NCBI GenBank assembly: GCA_028820655.1
Contig: JAPPIK010000004.1
Location: 124,001-188,000 of the forward strand
Reading direction: 5' to 3'
DNA: 64,000 nucleotides
From: Candidatus Poribacteria bacterium
GTDB lineage: Bacteria > Poribacteria > WGA-4E > JAJDTR01
Shown: positions 6,720-29,965 of the stretch, piece by piece
Position numbering within the stretch: the stretch's first letter is position 1
Layout: every line of letters begins with the position of its first letter
Program-made: the position numbers and the translations under genes
The notes under the pieces: model-generated
The model's database searches: none
Told to the model about the DNA's origin: nothing
Seen by the model: only the letters and a program-made list of their open reading frames with translations

Positions 6720-8522
6720 TCAACCAACCCCTTGTCCCTTATATTGAAGTTGATAAAGCCGATAATAAACGCCGCGTTTTCTCAGGAGCTCATTGTGCGT
6801 CCCCATTTCGCGGATTCGTCCCTTGTGCATCACAATAATCTTGTCGGCGTTCTGAATGGTCGAGAGTCGATGGGCAACTACAATCGAGGTTCGATTTCTC
6901 ATAAGGCGAGTTAGTGCATCTTGAATTAGAAGCTCCGTTTCGGTATCCACGCTTGATGTCGCCTCATCGAGAATCAGAATGTCGGGGTTGAAGGCTAATG
7001 CGCGCGCAAACGCCACCAACTGCTTTTGACCGACCGACAAGCCGCTCCCGCCTTCCTGAATCCTCGTGTCGTATCCATCTGCCATTCTCTGCACGAAGCT
7101 GTCGACGTGAACCTCTGTCGCTGCTGCGACCACCTGTTCCCGGGTAATATCTGCATTACCAAGTCGAATATTTTCCTCAACGCTGTCGGAAAACAGGAAG
7201 ATATTTTGCTGCACGATACTGATAGCACGCCGCAGATCTTTCAGAGGCAGCTTCTTTATGTCCACTCCGTCAATCAAGATGGAGCCCTCGTTGGGTTCAT
7301 AAAAACGGCATAAGAGATTGATGATCGTCGTTTTGCCCGAGCCCGTTTGTCCAACAATGGCAACCTTTTCCCCCGGTTCGACCTTCAATGACACATCACG
7401 CAGCACGTAGTTATCTCCTTGATACGCAAAGTGCACATTTCGGAGTTCAATCCGGCCGGAGAATTGGTTCATCTTCTTAGGTTCGTCGGCATCAACAATA
7501 GTAGGTTCCGTGTCCAAGAGTTCAAAGATTCTTTCAGATGATGCCATTGCGGTCTGAAAAATCGTATACTGTTCGCTCAAGTCGCGGATAGGCCAAAAGA
7601 AGCGTTGGGCGTATTGAATAAACATAACAAGCATTCCGAAACTGAGAGCATCGCGTAAAACTTGACCGCCGCCGTACCACACGATTATTGCTGTGGCGAG
7701 CGAACCAACTACCTCAATCAGCGGGAAAAACATTGAAAAGTAGATAACGGTCTTTAGGCTTGCGCGCAAATATTCCTGGTTACGATCATCAAATTTAAGA
7801 AAACTACGCCGCTCTTGCGCAAAGAGTTGCACCGTTGTCATACCGAGGATATTTTCGTTTAGGAAAGCGTTAATCCGGGCTAGGTGTTTGCGTTGATCAC
7901 GAAACGCTCGGCGGGAGTAAATTTGATAAAGTGTTGTTGCGGCGAAGATGATAGGCAGAACCGTGAAGGTAACCAGTGCGAGTTTCCAATTCCTTATTAG
8001 CATTACCACCATGATGCCAAAGATATTTAATAGATTCGCGAAAATAGTAATTATGCCTGATGTGAAGAGTTCGTTGAGAACCTGGACATCGCCCATCACG
8101 CGGGTCATCAATCGTCCAACCGGGTTTCGATCAAAGTATTTTACATCAAGTCGTTGCAGATGAGAAAAAATCTGATTCCGAATATCATGCATGATTTTTT
8201 GCCCAAGCATCTGCATCCTATACTCGTTCACATAACCGAACACGAGTTGCGCAATCATAGCCGTGATCATGAGTAAGGCGATAAACTCCAGTCCGTCCAA
8301 ATTGCGTGGTTGAATGTAATGATCAATGGCAATTTGAAGAAGAGTCGGTCCCGCCAACTCCCCTAACATTCCACCGACTACCAGAAACACCAGCAGTATA
8401 ACTTCAGAACGATAGGGTTTCATGTAGGAAACCAATCGCCTCATCAGTACCCGGTCATAAATCTTGCCAAGGTCCTGTTCCTCATCGCTATAATCGTGAA
8501 GCTGACCGCCCATACCGAACAC
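6720..8522 (-). CDS. ABC exporter half-transporter, canonical ATP site (MsbA/BmrD-like)
   Basis: Fused membrane domain plus ATPase, about 600 residues. Six membrane helices occupy roughly the first 330 residues; the ATPase has Walker A GQTGSGKTT, signature LSVGQKQ, Walker B ILILDEATSSVD with the catalytic glutamate, and the H-loop VAHRLST. The start is taken as GTG 8522 because GGAGG lies 8 bases before it. A longer frame back to 8639 would overlap the upstream gene and has no such site. It follows the other exporter gene after 64 bp, so the two probably form one heterodimeric exporter of drugs, lipids or peptides; substrate not inferable. Confidence 0.88.
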   Translation of the reverse strand: MFGMGGQLHDYSDEEQDLGKIYDRVLMRRLVSYMKPYRSEVILLVFLVVGGMLGELAGPTLLQIAIDHYIQPRNLDGLEFIALLMITAMIAQLVFGYVNEYRMQMLGQKIMHDIRNQIFSHLQRLDVKYFDRNPVGRLMTRVMGDVQVLNELFTSGIITIFANLLNIFGIMVVMLIRNWKLALVTFTVLPIIFAATTLYQIYSRRAFRDQRKHLARINAFLNENILGMTTVQLFAQERRSFLKFDDRNQEYLRASLKTVIYFSMFFPLIEVVGSLATAIIVWYGGGQVLRDALSFGMLVMFIQYAQRFFWPIRDLSEQYTIFQTAMASSERIFELLDTEPTIVDADEPKKMNQFSGRIELRNVHFAYQGDNYVLRDVSLKVEPGEKVAIVGQTGSGKTTIINLLCRFYEPNEGSILIDGVDIKKLPLKDLRRAISIVQQNIFLFSDSVEENIRLGNADITREQVVAAATEVHVDSFVQRMADGYDTRIQEGGSGLSVGQKQLVAFARALAFNPDILILDEATSSVDTETELLIQDALTRLMRNRTSIVVAHRLSTIQNADKIIVMHKGRIREMGTHNELLRKRGVYYRLYQLQYKGQGVG

Positions 8523-8586: not shown

Positions 8587-10329
8587 TCAAAGCTCTTCCA
8601 GTTCCTCTTGCAGCAATTGCCTCTCATGCATTCCGGCATAAATGCCGTTATGTTTAATCAGTTTTTCGTGAGTTCCGCGCTCCACGATTTCCCCGTCTTT
8701 CAGAACCACGATGAGATCCGCTGCTTTGACCGTCGAAATTCGATGCGAAATGATGAGTGTCGTCCGATTAGCCATGACTCCCCTAAGACGGGCCAGAATA
8801 GTGTCTTCCGTGTGCGTATCGACGTTCGCGAATGCATCATCCAAAATGAGAATGCGCGGATTAACAAGAATCGCACGCGCCAATGCGGTGCGCTGTCTTT
8901 GTCCACCTGAGATTGTGATGCCTCGCTCGCCCAAGAAAGTGTCCAAGCCATCCGGAAACTCCTCAATCTGTGCCAACAAATCGGCGGCATGTGCCGCATC
9001 CTTGATCTTGAGTTCGTTCGCGTCTTCATCGCCAAACGCTATATTGTTTCGCAGAAAATCGGAGAAGAGATACGGTTCCTGTGCTACTACTCCGATGTGT
9101 GAACGAAGAACGTCAAGGGAAATGTCTTGAATGTCTGCGCCGTCAATGAAAATTGTTCCGCGGTCGGCTTGATAGATTCGCGGAATCAAGTTGACAAGCG
9201 TCGTCTTACCGCAACCTGTTGGTCCAACGACCGCGACCGTTTCCCCAGGTTGCACTTTGAGGTTTATGTCCTTGAGTACATGAACCCCGTCTTGATAGCT
9301 AAAATTGAGGTTTTTTAGTTCGATTGCACCTTTAATGGATTGGATTCTTGCGTTGACATTTTCGCCATCGTATATGTCGGGGTTTTCATCAAGAATCCTC
9401 GCAATTCGTTTCATGGAAGCAGCTCCACGTTCAAAGGAGTTGACGACAAACCCCAGCATAATCATTGGACGGATAAGCATCATCAGATAAGCACTAAAGG
9501 AGACAAAATCACCGAGAGAGATTAGTCCATCAACGACACGCATGCCGCCTAACCACATAAGGACAACCCCGCCAATCCCGGGTAGAAAACGAAAGATGGG
9601 AAAAAAGACAGCCGTTAGTCGTATCTCTGCCCGATTTCGGCGTACGAAATTCTGATTGAATTCTTGGAATCGCGTTTTCTGGGAATCTTCAAGCGTATAC
9701 GCTTTCACCACACGCACTCCCGATAGGTTCTCCTGCACCGCAGTGTTCATATCAGAGAACCCTTCTTGGATTTTCTCATGGGTCTTATGAATTCGCGTGC
9801 CGAGTTCTCGGATTAATATGGCAAGTACCGGGTAAGGGAGCAGTGCATACAATGTCAAGCTGACATCAATATCCAACATAATTACCAATGCAAAACCGAA
9901 GAACACAATTGCATCAAGCGTAAACGAAATTGATGTGCTTAACATCATCCGCACGGCATTCATGTCACTGGTCGCCCGTGCCATCAAATCTCCCGTTTGA
10001 ACGCGGTTGTAGTAACTTGGGGAGAGTTTTTGCAAGTGAGTAAAGAAGTCGCTGCGCAGGTAGTATTCGGTTTTTCGCGCTACGCTCTGGATCGTCTTCC
10101 GCTGTGCAAACCGAATTACGCCGCCGACCAGCGCAACTCCAAAGATTAGCAGTGCGTAAAACAAGAGTTTCCGAGGCGTGATTGACCTTTCCAGATCGTC
10201 GATGGTCCACTTTAAGATTTTAGGGCTGATTAACAGGATTGCGTTCGTGATGAGAACGGAAATCAGGCTGATAATGACTGCAAATTTATGGCGGGAAATG
10301 TATTTCTTGAGGCGTAGTAAACTGCGAAT
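8587..10329 (-). CDS. ABC exporter half-transporter with degenerate ATP site, probable ATT start
   Basis: Partner half of the exporter. Walker A GPTGCGKTT, signature ISGGQRQR and Walker B LILDDAFANVD, in which Asp replaces the catalytic Glu. That is the usual asymmetry of heterodimeric exporters (BmrC, TM287). The frame has no ATG ahead of the first membrane helix. The first standard-type codon (TTG at 10164) would delete helix 1, yet the frame upstream encodes a normal N terminus (RSLLRLKKYISRHK then a hydrophobic helix). An ATT at 10329 sits 9 bases after an almost perfect ribosome site (AAGGGGGTGA) and gives the usual 580-residue length. An in-frame TGA precedes it at 10336-10338. Confidence 0.85.
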   Translation of the reverse strand: MRSLLRLKKYISRHKFAVIISLISVLITNAILLISPKILKWTIDDLERSITPRKLLFYALLIFGVALVGGVIRFAQRKTIQSVARKTEYYLRSDFFTHLQKLSPSYYNRVQTGDLMARATSDMNAVRMMLSTSISFTLDAIVFFGFALVIMLDIDVSLTLYALLPYPVLAILIRELGTRIHKTHEKIQEGFSDMNTAVQENLSGVRVVKAYTLEDSQKTRFQEFNQNFVRRNRAEIRLTAVFFPIFRFLPGIGGVVLMWLGGMRVVDGLISLGDFVSFSAYLMMLIRPMIMLGFVVNSFERGAASMKRIARILDENPDIYDGENVNARIQSIKGAIELKNLNFSYQDGVHVLKDINLKVQPGETVAVVGPTGCGKTTLVNLIPRIYQADRGTIFIDGADIQDISLDVLRSHIGVVAQEPYLFSDFLRNNIAFGDEDANELKIKDAAHAADLLAQIEEFPDGLDTFLGERGITISGGQRQRTALARAILVNPRILILDDAFANVDTHTEDTILARLRGVMANRTTLIISHRISTVKAADLIVVLKDGEIVERGTHEKLIKHNGIYAGMHERQLLQEELEEL

Positions 10330-19234: not shown

Positions 19235-20362
19235 CATTATGAAACGTGGTTAGTTGACCGCGACATGTGTTGACTGAAAATTACGATGAGGGGATGCGCC
19301 TTATCGTATGTTCATCGTCCGCCATTGTGGTCTAATGCCACTCAATAGTCAACGTGATGTATTGCTGATTGTTAAGTATAACATGCTTTGTCGGACTTGT
19401 CAAGTGGTAATAATAATTTTAACGATTTAGTAGGGGAAAGCAGTGGAGAGAAGCAGTGGCCGGTGGCCGGTGTCCAGTGAGGAAGGGGGAAAAGCAGTGG
19501 AGAGTGATGAGAGGAGAGCAGGGAAGAGTGGACGGAGCGGGAAGGGAGACGATGGGGTGGAGGGATGGAGGAATTGTCTGAACTGTGATTTATGTGATTT
19601 TTGGATTGGCAGGATTAGGGGCGGGGGAGTGAGTGGGAAGGGGAGGGGATTGTCTGAATCACTGATTACGCGGATTAATGGATTTCACGGAAGGGTAGGG
19701 ATGGAAGGCGAGTTTCAATTTACTTGAGGCGTGGAAAATTGACCGGAAATGGTCGGATTTTGTTGGTTAAATCGAGCAAGAATCCTTTTTCTTATATTTT
19801 TTTGCGTCGATAAGTTGTGGAAAACATGTGGACACGCGGTGGAGAGTGGCTAACACGGGAGAGGGGGTTGTCTGAATCGCGGATTACCACGGATTAGGCG
19901 GATTACGCGGATTAGAGGCGGGCTGTTGAGCAGGTTGCCAGAATGGGAAAACGGGAAGGGGGAGAAGCAGTGGCCAGTGGCCGGTGACCAGTGGGGAAGG
20001 CAAAAGCAGTAGAGTGTGAACAGTGAATAGTGGTTAGTAAGGGGATAGTCTGAATTGCGGATTAACACGGATTAAGCGGATTTCGCTGATGGGGAGGGAT
20101 GGTAGGACGTGGGAAAGGAGACTGAGTTTGTGATGAATAGCCAATCGAGCGGGACAAGGGTGTGATTCTGGCTCCTAATGACGGTCAAGAAAGCTATGGG
20201 AGCACGGTCGCGAACCTAAGCCGGTTGATTTACTTTTAAAACAGGTTCGAAATCACCGGGTTTTGTGACCACATGATGAGGTAGGTTTAGCCCTTAGGAT
20301 TTTAGCATAGTTGGTATGAATGCAGCAAATAATTGAATACGCCGACAACTCGTATTTTTGCC
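19235..20362. repeat. Purine-rich, degenerate repeat region without genes
   Basis: Two repeat types dominate. One is GCAGTGGCC/GGAGAGTG-like purine-rich tracts (19440-19560, 19950-20030). The other is a TGTCTGAAT..GGATTA..CGGATT unit (19648-19690, 19867-19914, 20046-20090, with a relic at 21335-21350). At 19720-19800 the minus strand reads a peptide (ending NPTISGQFSTPQVN) also found near 36980. A bulged hairpin lies at 20222-20262. No open frame here looks real. Confidence 0.6.
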
Positions 20363-21020: not shown

Positions 21021-21698
21021 TAAGATATTTGATTCAGGATTCCCTCATTTTAGTCAAAACGAAAATCTAAGGGTTTAAGGAGTATTGTAGGTTTTGTTTT
21101 GACGTACACGCATAACTTACCCCCATCCTTTAAACAGTAAATGACAAGATTTAAGTAATGGAATCCGACGGATTCTGGTCAAACTTAAACGCCGGAAGTT
21201 AGTGAAAATACAGTTCGTAGGGAGCTCTACAGCACTTGAAATCCGGTCGCTTGATGGCGGACGACCAGTGGATACGAACGAAGACAGGCAAAAGCACTAT
21301 GGAGAGTAGCGAGAGGCGCGCGGTCACCGAGGGGGATTGTCTGAATGACTAATGATGCGGAGCCCACGGGCTTGGAGGAATTTAGGGAGGCCGGGGGAAG
21401 ATATTGAGATGATAGCCAATTGCGCAGCCCCCGGGGCCATTGCATTCTGCTGCAGTGCAGATATTGAGGTGTCTGTTTGCCATTTACATGCCGCCCCGCA
21501 GCCGGGGCTGGAGGGCAGTACGGGCGGATCGTAACTCATACACTTTGGGTGTGAAAGATAATCTATGATATGCTTGATTGTTCGCTATTAATAGCGTATC
21601 ATCCAGTTGAATTTGGTGCGGCAAGTGGGTAACAGCCGACTTGCTGGTTCCAATCTATATTGAAGCCGCGCCGGGAAGGCGGAAAGGAGAAAAAACGA
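21021..21698. other. Intergenic with decayed repeats and one perfect palindrome
   Basis: No gene supported. A decayed member of the GCT-loop hairpin family lies at 21442-21458 and a TGTCTGAAT relic at 21335-21350. A perfect 14-bp palindrome CGCTATTAATAGCG (21583-21596) sits about 100 bp upstream of the small Arg-rich ORF and could be an operator. Confidence 0.5.
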
Positions 21699-22751: not shown

Positions 22752-23416
22752 ATTGGTGCGCGGTCGTTGTTCGTTCCGTTGAGGGCTCGCGATCTTCTCG
22801 CTCATGCCATCCCACCATTTGGAAACAGCAAGCGTTATCGGGATCCGATATCGCATCGTGTGATGCACATGGCACTCCGCTGGAGTGCATAGACGAATGC
22901 CGGCCGTTTCTATTGACATTGCACTGCGCTGCAGTGCGAAGACTGGCCTATCGGAATCGTGTCGGCATCGATGATTCGGTATCTCGCGAAGATGACTACG
23001 GGAACGCAATCGCGCTCGTTATTCACTTGCTCAATTTCATGCTGGAGCGGGGAATCGTGACCCGGAGGGCGAGGGATCTCTATCAGGATTGACTATGGGA
23101 TTAGCTATCGCGTGAAGATCTCTATGGGACCTCTATCGCACTCCTTATTCAGTCTTTTGATCCCTCGCTTTGCGCTTGGTTGATCTATCCGCTTCTTTGA
23201 TCCTTCGCTGTCCACTCAGTTGATCGCTCAATATCCAATCGCTTGATCTCCTACAAGGAGAAGAAGATTGTGTGCATTGCAGTTCTATTGACATTGCACT
23301 GCGCTGCAGTGCGGAGATTGGATTGTCGGAATGGGATCGGTGGAACACACCTAACAGCCAAAAAAGACGAAAAGGCTGGTGCGCAGTGCACACCCTACAT
23401 ATAGCTACGCCCCACC
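22752..23416. repeat. Repeat-rich intergenic region
   Basis: No gene. It contains GCT-loop hairpins at 22872-22888 (GCACTCC/GGAGTGC), 22921-22937 and 23296-23312 (GCACTGC/GCAGTGC). It also has 'CTCTATCGCACTCCTTATTCAGTC' type units around 23090-23160 and an imperfect GGTGCGC/GCACACC palindrome at 23378-23394. The arrangement of the first pair copies that at 16263-16328. Confidence 0.65.
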
Positions 23417-24334
23417 TTATTTTCCGTATTTGAAGCGTGCGATCGCGCCCTGCTCGGCTAACTCTGCGCGGGCGTAATGTGCGGGCATTTGGGGTGATTT
23501 CCAGCGCCCAGCGACCTGCATGTTTACGACAGACGCGCCTGCTTGAGCAAGCGAGACGGCAGATCCTACGCGAAGAGAGTGACCGGAGATATTGCCTTCC
23601 AAACCGGCTTGACACGCCCTGCGCTTGATGATCTTCCGGACACCGTCCACGGTTAACCTGTCTGCGGTAATGTGGCCACCGCGACGAACCCGACGAAAGA
23701 GGGCACCGTTCGTGATGCGCCCTGCTTCACAATACCGGCTTATTACTTCCCGCGTCGGGGGCCCGATGTACAACGTCACCCCCGGGGTGCCAGTCGCCGC
23801 CAGATCGGTCTTTGACGAGTGAATGGTCAACCCGCCGTCAATATCCTCCACATTTACCGCCACGACTTCACCGATACGTAACAGACAATCGCTCATCAGA
23901 CGAATCAGCGCCGAATCTCGCCATCCCGTGACGGTGCTCTCCGCTTGAACTCGTGTGCAGACTCTCTCCACATCCGCCCATGTCATGCCATCCACTTGGC
24001 CTCGTCCGCGATCCCTGCCTTTGCGCCGGATGCCAGCGAGCGTCCTTTCCGTGATCTCGAATATATAGTTCTTTGCCCCTGTGCAGTGATGATTTGCCGT
24101 CCACTTGACCGCGGCCACAATCTTGCTAATTGTCGCCGGCGACTTTCCGTCTTGATACAGCCCCGTGATGTAACTGGCGAGTAAGTTGTCGCTAAGCGAC
24201 CGCCCATCCAACCACCTCTCCAATTGGTCCATTGCTCGTCGATAGGTCTCGACGGTACTAGGTGCTGTGCTTGCTATGACCAGTTCCTCCGTTTCGTCGC
24301 TGATAGCGACCTGATTCCAAGTTAATACGTTCAT
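23417..24334 (-). CDS. Tyrosine recombinase / integrase
   Basis: 305 residues. An N-terminal SAM-like core-binding domain (about 20-110, with SPATISKIVAAVKW) is followed by the catalytic domain. The active-site set is visible: Arg in LLRIGEV, a Lys in the beta hairpin (SSKTD), HSLR (His-x-x-Arg), the AGRW Trp position and the nucleophile Tyr in AHYAR. Such enzymes cut and rejoin DNA at short inverted sites (integration, excision or inversion). Directly upstream are a promoter and perfect 16-bp inverted repeats (24378-24393 and 24676-24691). No tRNA or obvious att duplication was seen, which favours a local DNA-inversion role. Confidence 0.88.
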   Translation of the reverse strand: MNVLTWNQVAISDETEELVIASTAPSTVETYRRAMDQLERWLDGRSLSDNLLASYITGLYQDGKSPATISKIVAAVKWTANHHCTGAKNYIFEITERTLAGIRRKGRDRGRGQVDGMTWADVERVCTRVQAESTVTGWRDSALIRLMSDCLLRIGEVVAVNVEDIDGGLTIHSSKTDLAATGTPGVTLYIGPPTREVISRYCEAGRITNGALFRRVRRGGHITADRLTVDGVRKIIKRRACQAGLEGNISGHSLRVGSAVSLAQAGASVVNMQVAGRWKSPQMPAHYARAELAEQGAIARFKYGK

Positions 24335-24377
24335 GACCTTTCCTCCGCTCCCCGAGACTTAGCTCCCCATAACTATC

Positions 24378-24691
24378 TAGAAACACTATTCTATATAATT
24401 AAATGACAGTTTGTCAAAACTTTTTTCAAAAGATTTTTCTTTATGAAGGGAAGCGGAAATTGGCGCGCCATTATTCCTCAAGTGCCGATAAACATTGACT
24501 CTAATGTCGACCCGGGGCTCTTAGTTCTGAATTCACGACCATTATTTGCAGTAGTAAATGATACTAAGTCGCTGTTAATCAATTAACCACACACAAAATC
24601 GACCAACTTCTACAGTGTGGCTGAAACCCAAGCCACCACGAGTTTTCGACAAAATCTACTTATGAATCAAAACCCTAGAATAGTGTTTCTA
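24378..24691. promoter_or_regulatory. Candidate invertible promoter segment bounded by 16-bp inverted repeats
   Basis: TAGAAACACTATTCTA at 24378-24393 is repeated exactly in inverse orientation at 24676-24691. Within the left edge is a minus-strand promoter, TTGACA (24417-24412), 16 bases, TATAGA (24395-24390), whose -10 overlaps the repeat and which faces the recombinase gene. If the segment flipped, the same promoter would read rightward toward the giant secreted protein at 24953. A palindrome TGACAGTTTGTCA (24404-24416) overlaps the -35. The alternative is that the two repeats are recombinase or repressor binding sites without inversion. Confidence 0.5.
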
Positions 24692-24841
24692 AAGCGCGTT
24701 CGAGAACAGAACGCCAATCTGCTCTTACGAATACATGTAGTCGAGATAGTGACAGTGCCCATTGTGGGGCCGATGATTTCAACCACATACTAAACCCCAA
24801 ACGCGGCCGACAGGTTGCAACGCGAATAACCTGACACTGTT

Positions 24842-24910
24842 TTACGGGCAACCTACCGGTGTTGGCTATTCCCCGCGGAACGGCGACGCAAAGGTGAGGG
24901 GCGGCGTAGA
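24842..24910 (+). ncRNA. Possible structured leader with GACGCAAAGG motif
   Basis: Upstream of the giant protein the leader carries GGGCAACC (24846-24853) and GACGCAAAGG (24885-24894), words reminiscent of the GEMM (cyclic di-GMP I) riboswitch, followed by GGGGCGGCGT. The core CGCAAAGGT also occurs in the leader at 22203 and at about 22302. A full GEMM fold was not traced (the usual 3' GGGUUACC partner was not found), so this is a weak candidate. Confidence 0.2.
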
Positions 24911-24952
24911 AGCGGATAATCTCTACAACAGAATGGAAGGAAGAGACAAACT

Positions 24953-27900
24953 ATGAACCGATATTTCTCGTTATTTCTAATGCTACTCCTCTCGTTCACG
25001 TGCCGGATTGACGTTGCACACACGCAGGATAAGGTAGGAGATGAAGCGCGGGATGCCTCGACATGGATGCCGGATGGGAATCTGAGAAGTGCGGTTCGAG
25101 ATTCGCTGGGCGTAGCGAATGACGCGGGACTCACACAAGACGCGATGAAGGATCTCACGGAGCTTTTTGCAGGTAATGCATCTATTTCCAATATTAAGGG
25201 GCTGGAACACGCGACGAATCTGACGAAGTTAGATCTGAGAAGTAATAATATCAGCAGTATCACCCCGCTCGCAGGGCTTACGAATCTAACAGACCTGTGG
25301 CTGGCGTTTAATCAAATCACTGACATCAGTGCACTTGGTAATTTGACAAGCCTGACGCGATTGACGATTAGGGACAATCAGGTCGGCGAAATTGCTGATA
25401 TCAAAAATCTGACGAATCTGACAATTCTGTGGGTAAAGAATTGTGGTATCACCGATGTGTCACCGCTGCAGGGACTTACTAAGCTGGAGACGTTAAGGAT
25501 TGCGGAGAATTCGCTTACGAATGCTCATTTGCTTTCGAGTCTTACAAATCTGAACAGTGTAGATATTACGATACCGGATCCACCAGCATCCGACCCACCT
25601 CCAGATGAGGACCCACCGGGGGTGAGTATCTCTGTTCCATCAGGCGTGCAGAATGGGGCGTTTAACATAACCATAACCTTCTCAGAAACTGTATCGAACT
25701 TTGTGCAATCTGATGTTTCCTTAAGCGGCAGTGCGGCGAGTATCACTGCATGGAGTGCCAACACCGAAAACACCGTCTACACTGCAACGATAACACCGAC
25801 GGCGAGCGGTACGGTGTCAATTGGTGTTGCCGCCAGTGTCGCGACCGACGCGGCGAACAACCAAAATACAGCCGCAACATCGCAAACTGTGACCGTAGAT
25901 GTGGACAAACCGACGGTCACAATCAGTGTCCCGACGGGGACACAGAGCGCTGCGTTTAATGCAACCGTAACGTTCTCGGAGACGGTTTCGGGCTTTGCAC
26001 AATCCGATGTGTCTTTGACCGGCAGTGCGGCGAGCATCACAACGTGGAGTGCGAACAGCGATAATACCGTCTATACTGCAGCGATTACACCGACGGCAAG
26101 CGGCACAGTAACGGTTGGTGTCGCGGCCGATGTTGCTACCGATGCCGCAGGGAACAACAACACAGCAGCAACATCAAGAAATGTTGCGGTCAGCGTGGAT
26201 ACAATCGCACCGGGGGTAAGTATTTCTGTTCCGTCAGGTGTGCAGAACAGTGCGTTTAATGCCACGATCACCTTCACCGAAGCGGTATCGGGGTTTGCAC
26301 AATCAGATGTTTCTCTGAGCGGTAGCGCATCAAGTATCACGTCGTGGAGTGCGAATAGCGACAGCACCGTTTATACAGCGACAATTACGCCGACGGCAAG
26401 CGGTACGGTGACGATTGGCGTAGCAGCCAACGTGGCCACCGATGCGGCAAACAACCAAAATACGGCCGCGACATCACAAACGGTGAGTGTAGATGTGGAC
26501 GCACCGAGTGTAAGGATTTCAGTGCCATCAGGCGATCAAACAAGGGCATTTGATGTGTCGATTACGTTCACAGAGGCGGTATCTGGTTTTGAACAATCTG
26601 AACTTTTGCTCAGTGGTACAGCGACAGCGAGTATAACAGCGTGGTCAGCAAACACGGAGAGTAGCATCTACACGGCTACGATAACCCCGACGACGAGCGG
26701 CACAGTGATCTTGGATGTTGCTGCGAATGTAGCGACGGATGCTGCGAACAATCCAAACACCGCTGCGACGACACAAACGGTTACGATTCCCGATCCTGCG
26801 ACGTGGATGCCGGATGCCAACCTCAGAGCTGTCGTGCGAGGAGCACTCGGACTCACCTCAAACGCAGTCTTCAGCCAAGATGATATGAAAACCCTAACGA
26901 GTCTGCGTGCTGTGCAGAAACAGGTCACAGACCTCACCGGTTTGGAATACGCAACTGGACTAACGAAATTAGTCGCTTGGGGCAACCAAATCAGTAGTGT
27001 CACACCGCTCCAGAACTTAACGAGCCTCACGGATCTCCGTCTGGGTGGGAGTCAGATTAGCGATGCCACGCCACTTGAAGGCTTGACTTCGCTAACGCAT
27101 TTAGCACTGCAGCACAATGATATTAGCGATGTTACACCTCTCAGTAAATTAGTGAATCTGACGTGGTTGCGGTTAAAGGGGAATCCAGTAACAGATTTTT
27201 CGCCGCTATCGGGCCTTACAGGCATCACCGACGCGGATGTTGAGATACCAGAGCCCGATACTGATGCACCGGGTGTCAGTATTACTGTGCCTTCTGTTAC
27301 ACAGAATGGAGCGTTTGATGCGACGATCATATTCACAGAAGCGGTCTCAGATTTTGTGCAGACAGATGTGAGCATCTCTGGCACAGCGACTGCCTCAATC
27401 ACGGGATGGGATACGACAGATAACACAACTTTTACCGCTACGATTACCCCGACGACGAGTGGCACAGTGATCTTGGACGTTGCTGCGAGTGTAGCGACGG
27501 ATGCTGCGAACAACGCAAACACTGCTGCGACGACGCAAACCGCTTCTGTTGATATTGATGCGCCGGGGGTCAGCATTTCTGTGCCATCAGGCGATCAAAC
27601 GGGTGAATTTGATGCAACAATCACCTTTACCGAAGTGGTATCCGGTTTTGAACAAACGGATGTCTCTGTCTCCGGCACTGCTAATGCGAGTATCACCGCT
27701 TGGAATACGACAGACAATATGACCTATACTGCCACAATCACGCCGAGTACCAGTGGTAAGGTAACACTGAGTGTTCCGGCGAATGTCGCCACCGATGCTG
27801 CGAGCAACGCGAATACTGCGTCAACCACACAGACTGTCACTGCATTTGCTGTTCAGTTGTCTCAACTACAGGATCCTCAGTTCCAGGTTTTAGATACTGA

Positions 27901-29965
27901 CCCACCAAGTGTCAGTATTGAGGTGCCTGAAGGCGTCCAGAATGGTGCGTTTGATGCGACGATTACGTTCACGGAAGCGGTCTCAGGTTTTGAACAGTCC
28001 GACGTGTCGCTTACCGGGACGGCAACAGCAAGTATAACAGTTTGGTCAGCAAACACAGATGACACCGTCTTCACTGCGACGATTACCCCAACGACGAGTG
28101 GGACGGTAATTCTAGACATTGCGGCTAGCGTGGCGACGGATGCGGCGAACAACCCCAATACCGCCGCGACGACGCAAACGGTCAGTGTGGATATTGATGC
28201 GCCGGTCGTATCCCTTACCTTGCTTCCAGAGGTGGAAAGCAATAGGATAGATTTAAAAATTACCTTTACAGAGCCGGTTGAAGGTTTTGATTCCGCGGAT
28301 CTCTCGATTACGACCAGCGGTCTTACACAAGTAGACGACACTGTGCTTGGTGTAGAGGACAGTCTGGTTGGTGTCCAAGTGTTTGAGCATCCTATTACGT
28401 CTATAACCGGTTGGACGCCGAGTCCCGACAGGACAACATACACAGCCTATATTACAACCTACTCCAAAACCAAAGGGCAGGTGATATTCGATGTCCCCGC
28501 GGGGGTCGCGACTGATGTTGCCAGCAATTCGAATGTTGCTGGAGACACACTAACAGTTGACAAGGGTCCCGCAGGCGGTCTGGTTGGTTATACCGGTAGT
28601 GATGAATTTGGGTGGGTGGATGGTACTCCTAATGTTAATAGGAACTGTTATTATCTTAGGGAGCCTGCAGATTATCGTAATCGTCTTGATATCAATCAGG
28701 ATGACAGTATCGATGAAGAGGATGTCAAAATGGTCAGAGATGCTTTGGGGCAGTTCGGAGATGGTATCGTCATTCCTCGCACGGATATTAACTGTGACAA
28801 CACCGTCGATGCCGTCGATCTGGCGTTAGTGGATGATACGCAGAGTCCGACCGTTAGTATTTCTGTTCCCACGGATTCGCAATCAGGAGTGTTTCATGTC
28901 AAGATCACCTTCAGTGAATACATCTTCGATTTCGATCAGAGTGATGTTTCGCTTGAAGGCAGCACCGCAACGGCAGCTGCTACAATTATCAGTTCTGTCT
29001 ACGCTGGGGAAGGTAAAGTCACAACTGTTCAGTATTATGTTAGGATTACACCGACCTCAGTTGGAAACGTTGTCATCAGTATTCCGGCGGGTTCCGTTAC
29101 GGATGCCTTAGGTAACCTAAGCACCGCTTCTGACACGCAGACCGTCACGGTAGAAGAATTAAGTACTCCAACTGTTACCATCTCGGCTCCCCGTGAGGTA
29201 GAAGGTGCATTCGATATTACTATCATTTTCAGCGAGGAAGTCTCTGGTTTTGATCAGTCGGATGTCTCTCTAGGAGGTAATGAGTATGCCAACTCTGCAG
29301 CAGCGAGCATCACCGCATGGAATACGACGGACAACATCACATACACAGCTACGATTACGCCTACGCGGAGTGGACAGATTGATCTTAGGATTCCGACAGG
29401 TTTTACAATCGGTGCTGATAATACAATAATAATTCTTTACACTGACTTTATGTGGGGACGTATCGTTGTTACCCTCCCTGACGAAGTTGAAAATGCCGCT
29501 CCCGCTTTATTTAGTAAGGTAATGGAGCTGCTGGACGCGTCCACGGTTGAATCGCTTGGTCGAGATGTACTTGAAGCACAGTTACAGATACTGCTCGCTG
29601 AAAGTGATGGGTCTCTGAAATACTTGCAGGCGATTGCTTTATTAAGAAACGCTTTGGCAGTCTTGCGTCCAGACAAGACGCAGCTGCTTGCAAATTATCC
29701 CAACCCGTTCAATCCAGAGACATGGATCCCGTATCATCTCGCAAACGATACCGGTGTTCAGATATCAATCTACGGCATCAACGGAGCGCGGGTGCGCCAT
29801 TTGCAGCTGGGTCATCAGCGGGCAGGGTATTACACGGATCGGAGCCGAGCGGCGTATTGGGATGGACGCAGCAGCACCGGGGAGCGGGTTGCGAGCGGGG
29901 TGTACTTCTATACGTTGATTGCTGATGATTTTAGGTCAACGCGGAAGATGCTGATTGGGAAGTAG
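24953..29965 (+). CDS. Giant secreted protein: LRR, Ig-like repeats, dockerin, FlgD-like C-terminal tail
   Basis: 1670 residues. Signal peptide (1-25), then an internalin-type leucine-rich block (about 35-205). Ig-like repeats of about 100 residues follow (from about 222, 321, 420 and 520; each with a [AP]-x-V-x-ISVP start, SEA/TVS-F-QSDVSL, and ATITPT-SGTV). A second LRR block (614-765), more Ig-like repeats, a dockerin pair (DINQDDSIDEED at about 1243 and DINCDNTVDAVDL at about 1278), two more Ig-like units and a C-terminal NPFNPETWIPY...GVYFYTLIA...RKMLIGK domain (from about 1577) like FlgD-fold sorting tails. AAGGA lies upstream of the ATG. Likely a surface adhesin or matrix protein. DNA-level repeats make it prone to recombination. 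It lies 261 bp beyond the inverted-repeat segment. Confidence 0.88.
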   Translation: MNRYFSLFLMLLLSFTCRIDVAHTQDKVGDEARDASTWMPDGNLRSAVRDSLGVANDAGLTQDAMKDLTELFAGNASISNIKGLEHATNLTKLDLRSNNISSITPLAGLTNLTDLWLAFNQITDISALGNLTSLTRLTIRDNQVGEIADIKNLTNLTILWVKNCGITDVSPLQGLTKLETLRIAENSLTNAHLLSSLTNLNSVDITIPDPPASDPPPDEDPPGVSISVPSGVQNGAFNITITFSETVSNFVQSDVSLSGSAASITAWSANTENTVYTATITPTASGTVSIGVAASVATDAANNQNTAATSQTVTVDVDKPTVTISVPTGTQSAAFNATVTFSETVSGFAQSDVSLTGSAASITTWSANSDNTVYTAAITPTASGTVTVGVAADVATDAAGNNNTAATSRNVAVSVDTIAPGVSISVPSGVQNSAFNATITFTEAVSGFAQSDVSLSGSASSITSWSANSDSTVYTATITPTASGTVTIGVAANVATDAANNQNTAATSQTVSVDVDAPSVRISVPSGDQTRAFDVSITFTEAVSGFEQSELLLSGTATASITAWSANTESSIYTATITPTTSGTVILDVAANVATDAANNPNTAATTQTVTIPDPATWMPDANLRAVVRGALGLTSNAVFSQDDMKTLTSLRAVQKQVTDLTGLEYATGLTKLVAWGNQISSVTPLQNLTSLTDLRLGGSQISDATPLEGLTSLTHLALQHNDISDVTPLSKLVNLTWLRLKGNPVTDFSPLSGLTGITDADVEIPEPDTDAPGVSITVPSVTQNGAFDATIIFTEAVSDFVQTDVSISGTATASITGWDTTDNTTFTATITPTTSGTVILDVAASVATDAANNANTAATTQTASVDIDAPGVSISVPSGDQTGEFDATITFTEVVSGFEQTDVSVSGTANASITAWNTTDNMTYTATITPSTSGKVTLSVPANVATDAASNANTASTTQTVTAFAVQLSQLQDPQFQVLDTDPPSVSIEVPEGVQNGAFDATITFTEAVSGFEQSDVSLTGTATASITVWSANTDDTVFTATITPTTSGTVILDIAASVATDAANNPNTAATTQTVSVDIDAPVVSLTLLPEVESNRIDLKITFTEPVEGFDSADLSITTSGLTQVDDTVLGVEDSLVGVQVFEHPITSITGWTPSPDRTTYTAYITTYSKTKGQVIFDVPAGVATDVASNSNVAGDTLTVDKGPAGGLVGYTGSDEFGWVDGTPNVNRNCYYLREPADYRNRLDINQDDSIDEEDVKMVRDALGQFGDGIVIPRTDINCDNTVDAVDLALVDDTQSPTVSISVPTDSQSGVFHVKITFSEYIFDFDQSDVSLEGSTATAAATIISSVYAGEGKVTTVQYYVRITPTSVGNVVISIPAGSVTDALGNLSTASDTQTVTVEELSTPTVTISAPREVEGAFDITIIFSEEVSGFDQSDVSLGGNEYANSAAASITAWNTTDNITYTATITPTRSGQIDLRIPTGFTIGADNTIIILYTDFMWGRIVVTLPDEVENAAPALFSKVMELLDASTVESLGRDVLEAQLQILLAESDGSLKYLQAIALLRNALAVLRPDKTQLLANYPNPFNPETWIPYHLANDTGVQISIYGINGARVRHLQLGHQRAGYYTDRSRAAYWDGRSSTGERVASGVYFYTLIADDFRSTRKMLIGK

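Follow-up and report, generated by a model that had tools for sequence, protein, structure and literature searches.

A probable invertible promoter between a tyrosine recombinase gene and a giant surface-protein gene in Candidatus Poribacteria

Genes and features at the locus

The window, a stretch of 64,000 nucleotides, lies on contig C60 of a 5.88-Mb Poribacteria MAG (G000). MAGs of Candidatus Poribacteria are the closest named relatives of this genome. The original prediction had placed inverted repeats, a promoter, a recombinase gene and a large gene in one part of it, and all of these were found at their predicted positions (Table 1).

Table 1. Features of the recombinase-surface gene region, in window coordinates
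Feature	Position	Strand	Remarks
Tyrosine recombinase, 305 aa	23417-24334	-	Phage_integrase PF00589, 50.5 bits
Inverted repeat, recombinase-proximal (putative crossover site), TAGAAACACTATTCTA	24378-24393		Outer arm TAGAA 24378-24382; spacer ACACTA 24383-24388; inner arm TTCTA 24389-24393
Promoter, TTGACA-N18-TAGAAT	24388-24417	-	Faces recombinase as assembled; kept in homologs
Invertible interior (predicted)	24394-24675	none	282 bp; homologous in 11 two-repeat loci and 3 remnants
Conserved block in segment, GTCAATGTTTATCGGCACTTGAGGAATAATGG	24468-24499	-	Upstream of promoter in both orientations; from alignments
Inverted repeat, distal (putative crossover site), TAGAATAGTGTTTCTA	24676-24691		Inner arm TAGAA 24676-24680; spacer TAGTGT 24681-24686; outer arm TTCTA 24687-24691
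Distal flank, 5' leader of surface gene	24692-24952	+	Flank family in homologs
Target gene, 1670-aa secreted or surface protein	24953-29965	+	LRR, 10 Big_12, weak dockerin, T9SS-type sorting domain

The two repeats proved to be as perfect as had been claimed, with arms of 16 nt that are 100% complementary and 282 nt apart. Each is nearly palindromic (TAGAA-N6-TTCTA) and is laid out as an outer arm, a 6-bp spacer and the inner arm TTCTA. Among inverted repeats with arms at least 100 nt apart, the longest in the 618-bp intergenic region was 16, versus 7-12 in 150 dinucleotide-preserving shuffles; the shuffles, together with conservation in homologs, ruled out a chance origin. The 16-mer occurred twice in the 5.88-Mb genome, both times at this locus, and one further site with 2 mismatches was present on contig C36, where no recombinase match was found.

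The outward promoter expected at the left edge of the interior was present, with a TTGACA -35 element facing the recombinase. Its -10 element had been read as TATAGA at 16 nt, but the alignment of loci showed that homologs keep TAGAAT at 17-18 nt. On the minus strand of the window, TTGACA (24417-24412) is followed after 18 nt by TAGAAT (24393-24388), in agreement with the consensus at 11/12 positions. The flip had been expected to move the -35 and recreate the promoter on the right; since TAGAAT is made up of the inner arm and the first base of the spacer, both hexamers travel with the segment and the entire promoter would move. The consensus match is conserved across loci and marks a putative outward promoter able to face the target gene. 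The conserved block at 24468-24499 may be the site of an activator or accessory protein. No promoter above chance was detected in 24692-24952, where there was one 9/12 match, with 1.3 promoter-like sites expected in the scanned region.

The gene beyond the distal repeat had been described as an LRR/Ig/dockerin giant. The LRR (LRR_4) and Ig-like parts (ten Big_12 stretches) of this description stood, but the dockerin was marginal at 21.7 bits, below its cut-off of 22.9. In addition, a T9SS-type sorting domain at the C-terminus of the protein scored 27.6 bits against a cut-off of 23.

The adjoining gene is a tyrosine recombinase, as predicted, by its Pfam match and a full catalytic set aligned to Cre. 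Cre was the closest solved structure (E 7e-10), with R, K, H-x-x-R, W and Y aligned over only ~200 aa of the catalytic region. The catalytic residues R153, K175, H252, R255, W278 and Y287 are complete, and all six are invariant in 10 homologs. Matches to XerA/XerD-like profiles fell under the cut-offs and no NCBIfam equivalog cut-off was reached. An integron/attI reading was rejected, as the integron-integrase profile TIGR02249 scored only 11.7 bits against a cut-off of 265 (E=0.12). A search of IMG/VR viral contigs returned no close relatives, and so no sign of a phage element. The AlphaFold2 model, built from 10 sequences, had a mean pLDDT of 40 and was unusable.

The window has other repeats too. 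Downstream of the recombinase, a 58-nt direct repeat (86%) occupies 22908-22965 and 23283-23340, 375 bp apart, and contains the palindrome GCACTGCGCTGCAGTGC; related copies are found near 21438 and 22868. Several 51-nt G-rich direct repeats of the TCTGAATCGCGGATTACCACGGATTA type occupy 19644-20090, in a gene-poor stretch.

The segment in related genomes

Three other genomes (G007, G010 and G014) encode close homologs of the recombinase, with 65-75% identity. Ten further two-repeat loci, likewise in three other genomes, carry the promoter segment (n=11 with the window). In these relatives short inverted repeats enclose the segment and a tyrosine recombinase gene is its neighbour, apart from one solitary copy, L105, which has both repeats and a complete inverton with no recombinase within about 5 kb. 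At L041-L046, the recombinase start is preceded at distances of 50-60 and 350-360 bp by inverted repeats of 10-12 bp, with a homologous segment of 282-297 bp between the cores; L047, L055 and L058 carry a shorter, diverged version. The recombinases of the window and of L041-L046 form a supported clade (99/95, n=7), all with the module. Outer arms were poorly conserved among loci. The segment profile matched the window at 24687-24378 with E 3.6e-64. A search of 85 genomes of the phylum with a profile of the promoter half recovered all 11 loci and added only remnants or weak matches. Weak matches in other genomes (L132-L137, E 7e-7 to 5e-4) resemble the segment in their promoter box, but inverted repeats that match were not found there and they were left out of the counts.

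More distant recombinase homologs lacked the segment, and a MAFFT alignment of their upstream regions showed none in common. Six of them (L048, L049, L051, L057, L064 and L065) have TATACAACGCTATC in common ~45 bp before the recombinase start codon. In some of these the left half of the site is GATAGCGTTATAT (13-8/10-13, loxP-like), and in others unrelated DNA lies on the left. This may be a site of another kind, for recombination or insertion, that belongs to the same family of recombinases.

In most loci, the gene beyond the distal site is divergent and encodes a secreted or surface protein. The target is an LRR/Big_12 protein cut by the contig end at L043, an Ig-like protein at L044, an LRR/WD40 giant about 1 kb away at L045, the start of a secreted gene at a contig end at L041, a secreted gene behind an IS at L047, and a small secreted or membrane protein at L042, L046, L055 and L058. 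Contig breaks at the surface genes of L041, L043 and L044 conceal their full length. The target of L105 is not a surface gene: the solitary inverton lies ~70 bp from a UvrD-PD-(D/E)XK helicase-nuclease gene, which is followed by a DNA methyltransferase (L105:4602-9687), and this is a possible phase-variable defence cluster. Small secreted cysteine-containing proteins are encoded beside the inverton sites at L046:5161-5415 (-) and L055:8806-9156 (+). Neither had a Pfam match, and they look bacteriocin-like at most.

The 6-bp spacer was the same at both ends in 11/11 loci, with 7 haplotypes (ACACTA, ATGCTA, ATACTA, GTGTTA, TTAGCA, ATAGCA and CATTAT). Full matching under random pairing has p=6e-7, uncorrected for phylogeny. 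L042, L043 and L045, which have the same downstream genes, differ in their spacers, and both ends changed together. In L041-L046, identity between the two ends ceases at the outer edge of the spacer.

Orientations were compared by locating two profiles at every locus, one of the segment and one of the target-gene-side flank. The results showed 11 loci in the normal orientation, with the promoter on the recombinase side and the target-gene flank abutting the non-promoter end, versus three flipped junctions (L106, L131 and L047). The window's own flank matched weakly (E 0.07), yet was located at its distal site. In L106, from a complete genome, it is the promoter end (5960) that adjoins the flank (5961), and in L131, on contig 41 of the window's own genome, the same junction lies at 7881/7887. 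In L047 only an inserted IS separates the flank from the promoter end; the recombinase is kept and faces the promoterless end, and a 12/12 promoter (TTGACA-17-TATAAT) points away from it. L148 is a decayed remnant in the normal orientation. As judged from the assemblies, both orientations exist between loci and species, joined at or beside the repeat core in different loci.

The flipped loci may be locked, because L106 and L131 are remnants without a recombinase and the outer arm of L047 carries the IS, so that the site is damaged. All recombinase loci except L047 were assembled with the recombinase ON. Since the flipped copies are all remnants or damaged and nearly all intact loci are recombinase-ON, the comparison does not establish frequent two-way switching. 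The predominance of the recombinase-facing state at intact loci fits a biased or slow switch, or one whose other state consensus assembly rarely captures. In the flipped remnant L131:7843-7967, which has no recombinase nearby, the promoter faces a TetR-type regulator gene ~370 bp away.

Interpretation of the segment

The segment at 24378-24691 is, with high probability, a promoter inverton whose 282-bp interior would be flipped by the adjacent recombinase, so that the promoter serves either the recombinase or the surface gene. This reading follows from the matched spacers and from the flipped junctions in relatives, and on the same two lines of evidence, co-varying spacers in 11 loci and three loci joined the other way at or beside the core, the predicted invertible promoter switch held. 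The neighbouring recombinase very probably flips the segment. The complete and invariant catalytic residues, the divergent secreted or surface genes at most loci and the supported clade of recombinases with the module also speak for an inverton. Against it count the near-uniform orientation of the recombinase loci, the poor conservation of outer arms, L105 with its missing recombinase and non-surface neighbour, and the lack of the segment in more distant recombinase homologs.

The -10 element overlaps the proximal repeat and each repeat is nearly palindromic, as would be seen if the recombinase or another protein bound both repeats, looped the DNA and repressed the recombinase promoter without strand exchange. 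An operator would keep its half-sites conserved, whereas here the matched and varying part is the centre. Tyrosine recombinases need spacer homology, so spacers that are matched yet variable between loci are expected of a strand-exchange spacer and are hard to explain by an operator. The three loci joined the other way at or beside the core also need strand exchange, and we consider repression by looping very unlikely. A switch frozen in this genome, with the repeats a relic and the promoter simply driving the recombinase, is improbable: the remnants L106, L131 and L148 and the IS-damaged L047 show that modules decay, and nearly all intact loci share one orientation, but the window has perfect repeats, an intact recombinase with its full catalytic set and a promoter that matches at 11/12 positions.

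Somewhat less unlikely, though still not favoured, is that the repeats serve as attachment sites in cassette exchange or a shufflon-like system, where the recombinase would mainly swap, delete or invert target genes with copies of the distal site and promoter inversion would be just one outcome. At L055 the distal site and its leader recur at 8688-8799, 4.54 kb from the first copy and before another secreted gene, with 81 bp of flank 100% identical and the core identical too; this is a possible shufflon. At L042 a lipoprotein gene is preceded by a second distal flank, but the site there has a different spacer. Loci with the same downstream genes (L042/L043/L045 and L041/L044) have different upstream genes, but this turnover could be ordinary recombination. 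Against cassette exchange, only two sites are present in the window, and two in most loci.

If the segment is a promoter inverton, the adjacent recombinase would bind both short inverted sites and exchange strands across the identical 6-bp spacers, which would invert the 282-bp interior with its one outward promoter (TTGACA-N17/18-TAGAAT) and the conserved upstream sequence. In the assembled orientation the promoter would drive the recombinase, and the LRR/Ig giant gene would be left without a recognisable promoter. After inversion a complete promoter would face the surface gene, ~270 bp from its ATG, and the recombinase would lose its promoter and its synthesis would stop. A recombinase-producing, surface-OFF majority would then yield surface-ON cells, and ON would be comparatively stable. 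As a single promoter is shared by recombinase and target, a self-silencing toggle is predicted from the anatomy. We infer the identity of the enzyme (the adjacent recombinase), the activity of the promoter, continued switching, the stability of ON and the biological role, which would be to vary a surface protein in the sponge. It is a tentative proposal, given slightly less than an even chance, that the loci form a conserved family of self-silencing toggles in this uncultured phylum, in which the flip to target-ON shuts off the flipper, ON is semi-permanent and, in some copies, spare distal sites ahead of further secreted genes allow a choice of target.

Relation to known systems

Poribacteria are uncultured and abundant sponge symbionts. 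In the literature searched there was no earlier report of inverting promoters or phase variation in this group, and one unrelated paper mentions both terms. A switch on an LRR/Ig giant surface protein would make their populations heterogeneous where they meet the host or phages.

The recombinase has the same catalytic set as Cre and XerC/XerD, and the sites of the window are weak-armed inverted pairs, not dif or loxP. The third site of L055, before a second secreted gene, is similar to those of shufflons and multi-gene inversion systems, whereas no more than two sites and a single target are present in the window.

The layout had been likened to known phase-variable switches. This was upheld for a promoter inverton, but the recombinase is itself one of the two genes served, unlike in most invertons. 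In E. coli, fimS is a promoter segment of about 300 bp with 9-bp inverted repeats, and its orientation affects FimE production through a terminator inside fimS (PMC9993118). The window resembles fim (FimB/FimE) in its ~300-bp promoter segment, adjoining tyrosine recombinase and surface-structure target. However, fim alters fimE via the terminator and not by giving it a promoter, whereas in the Poribacteria module one promoter would alternate between recombinase and target. A fim-type switch was rejected for the window, which has one adjacent recombinase and no FimB/FimE-like pair, and no terminator-like site was found within 24300-25000.

Promoter invertons of gut bacteria (Bacteroides and Akkermansia, the PhaseFinder class) likewise have short inverted repeats, an outward promoter, surface genes and often a nearby recombinase (PMC11892184). 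Recombinases near gut invertons are generally not placed for control by the inverton promoter, with group 145 a possible exception (PMC11892184), whereas a recombinase facing the inverton promoter is the conserved state of the Poribacteria module. Because gut inverton recombinases are generally not so placed and fimS uses a terminator, one promoter for either recombinase or target is an unusual inverton variant. Sharing a promoter in mutual exclusion is a simple wiring that departs from the usual inverton design, and the switch that it predicts would be directional and have heritable memory.
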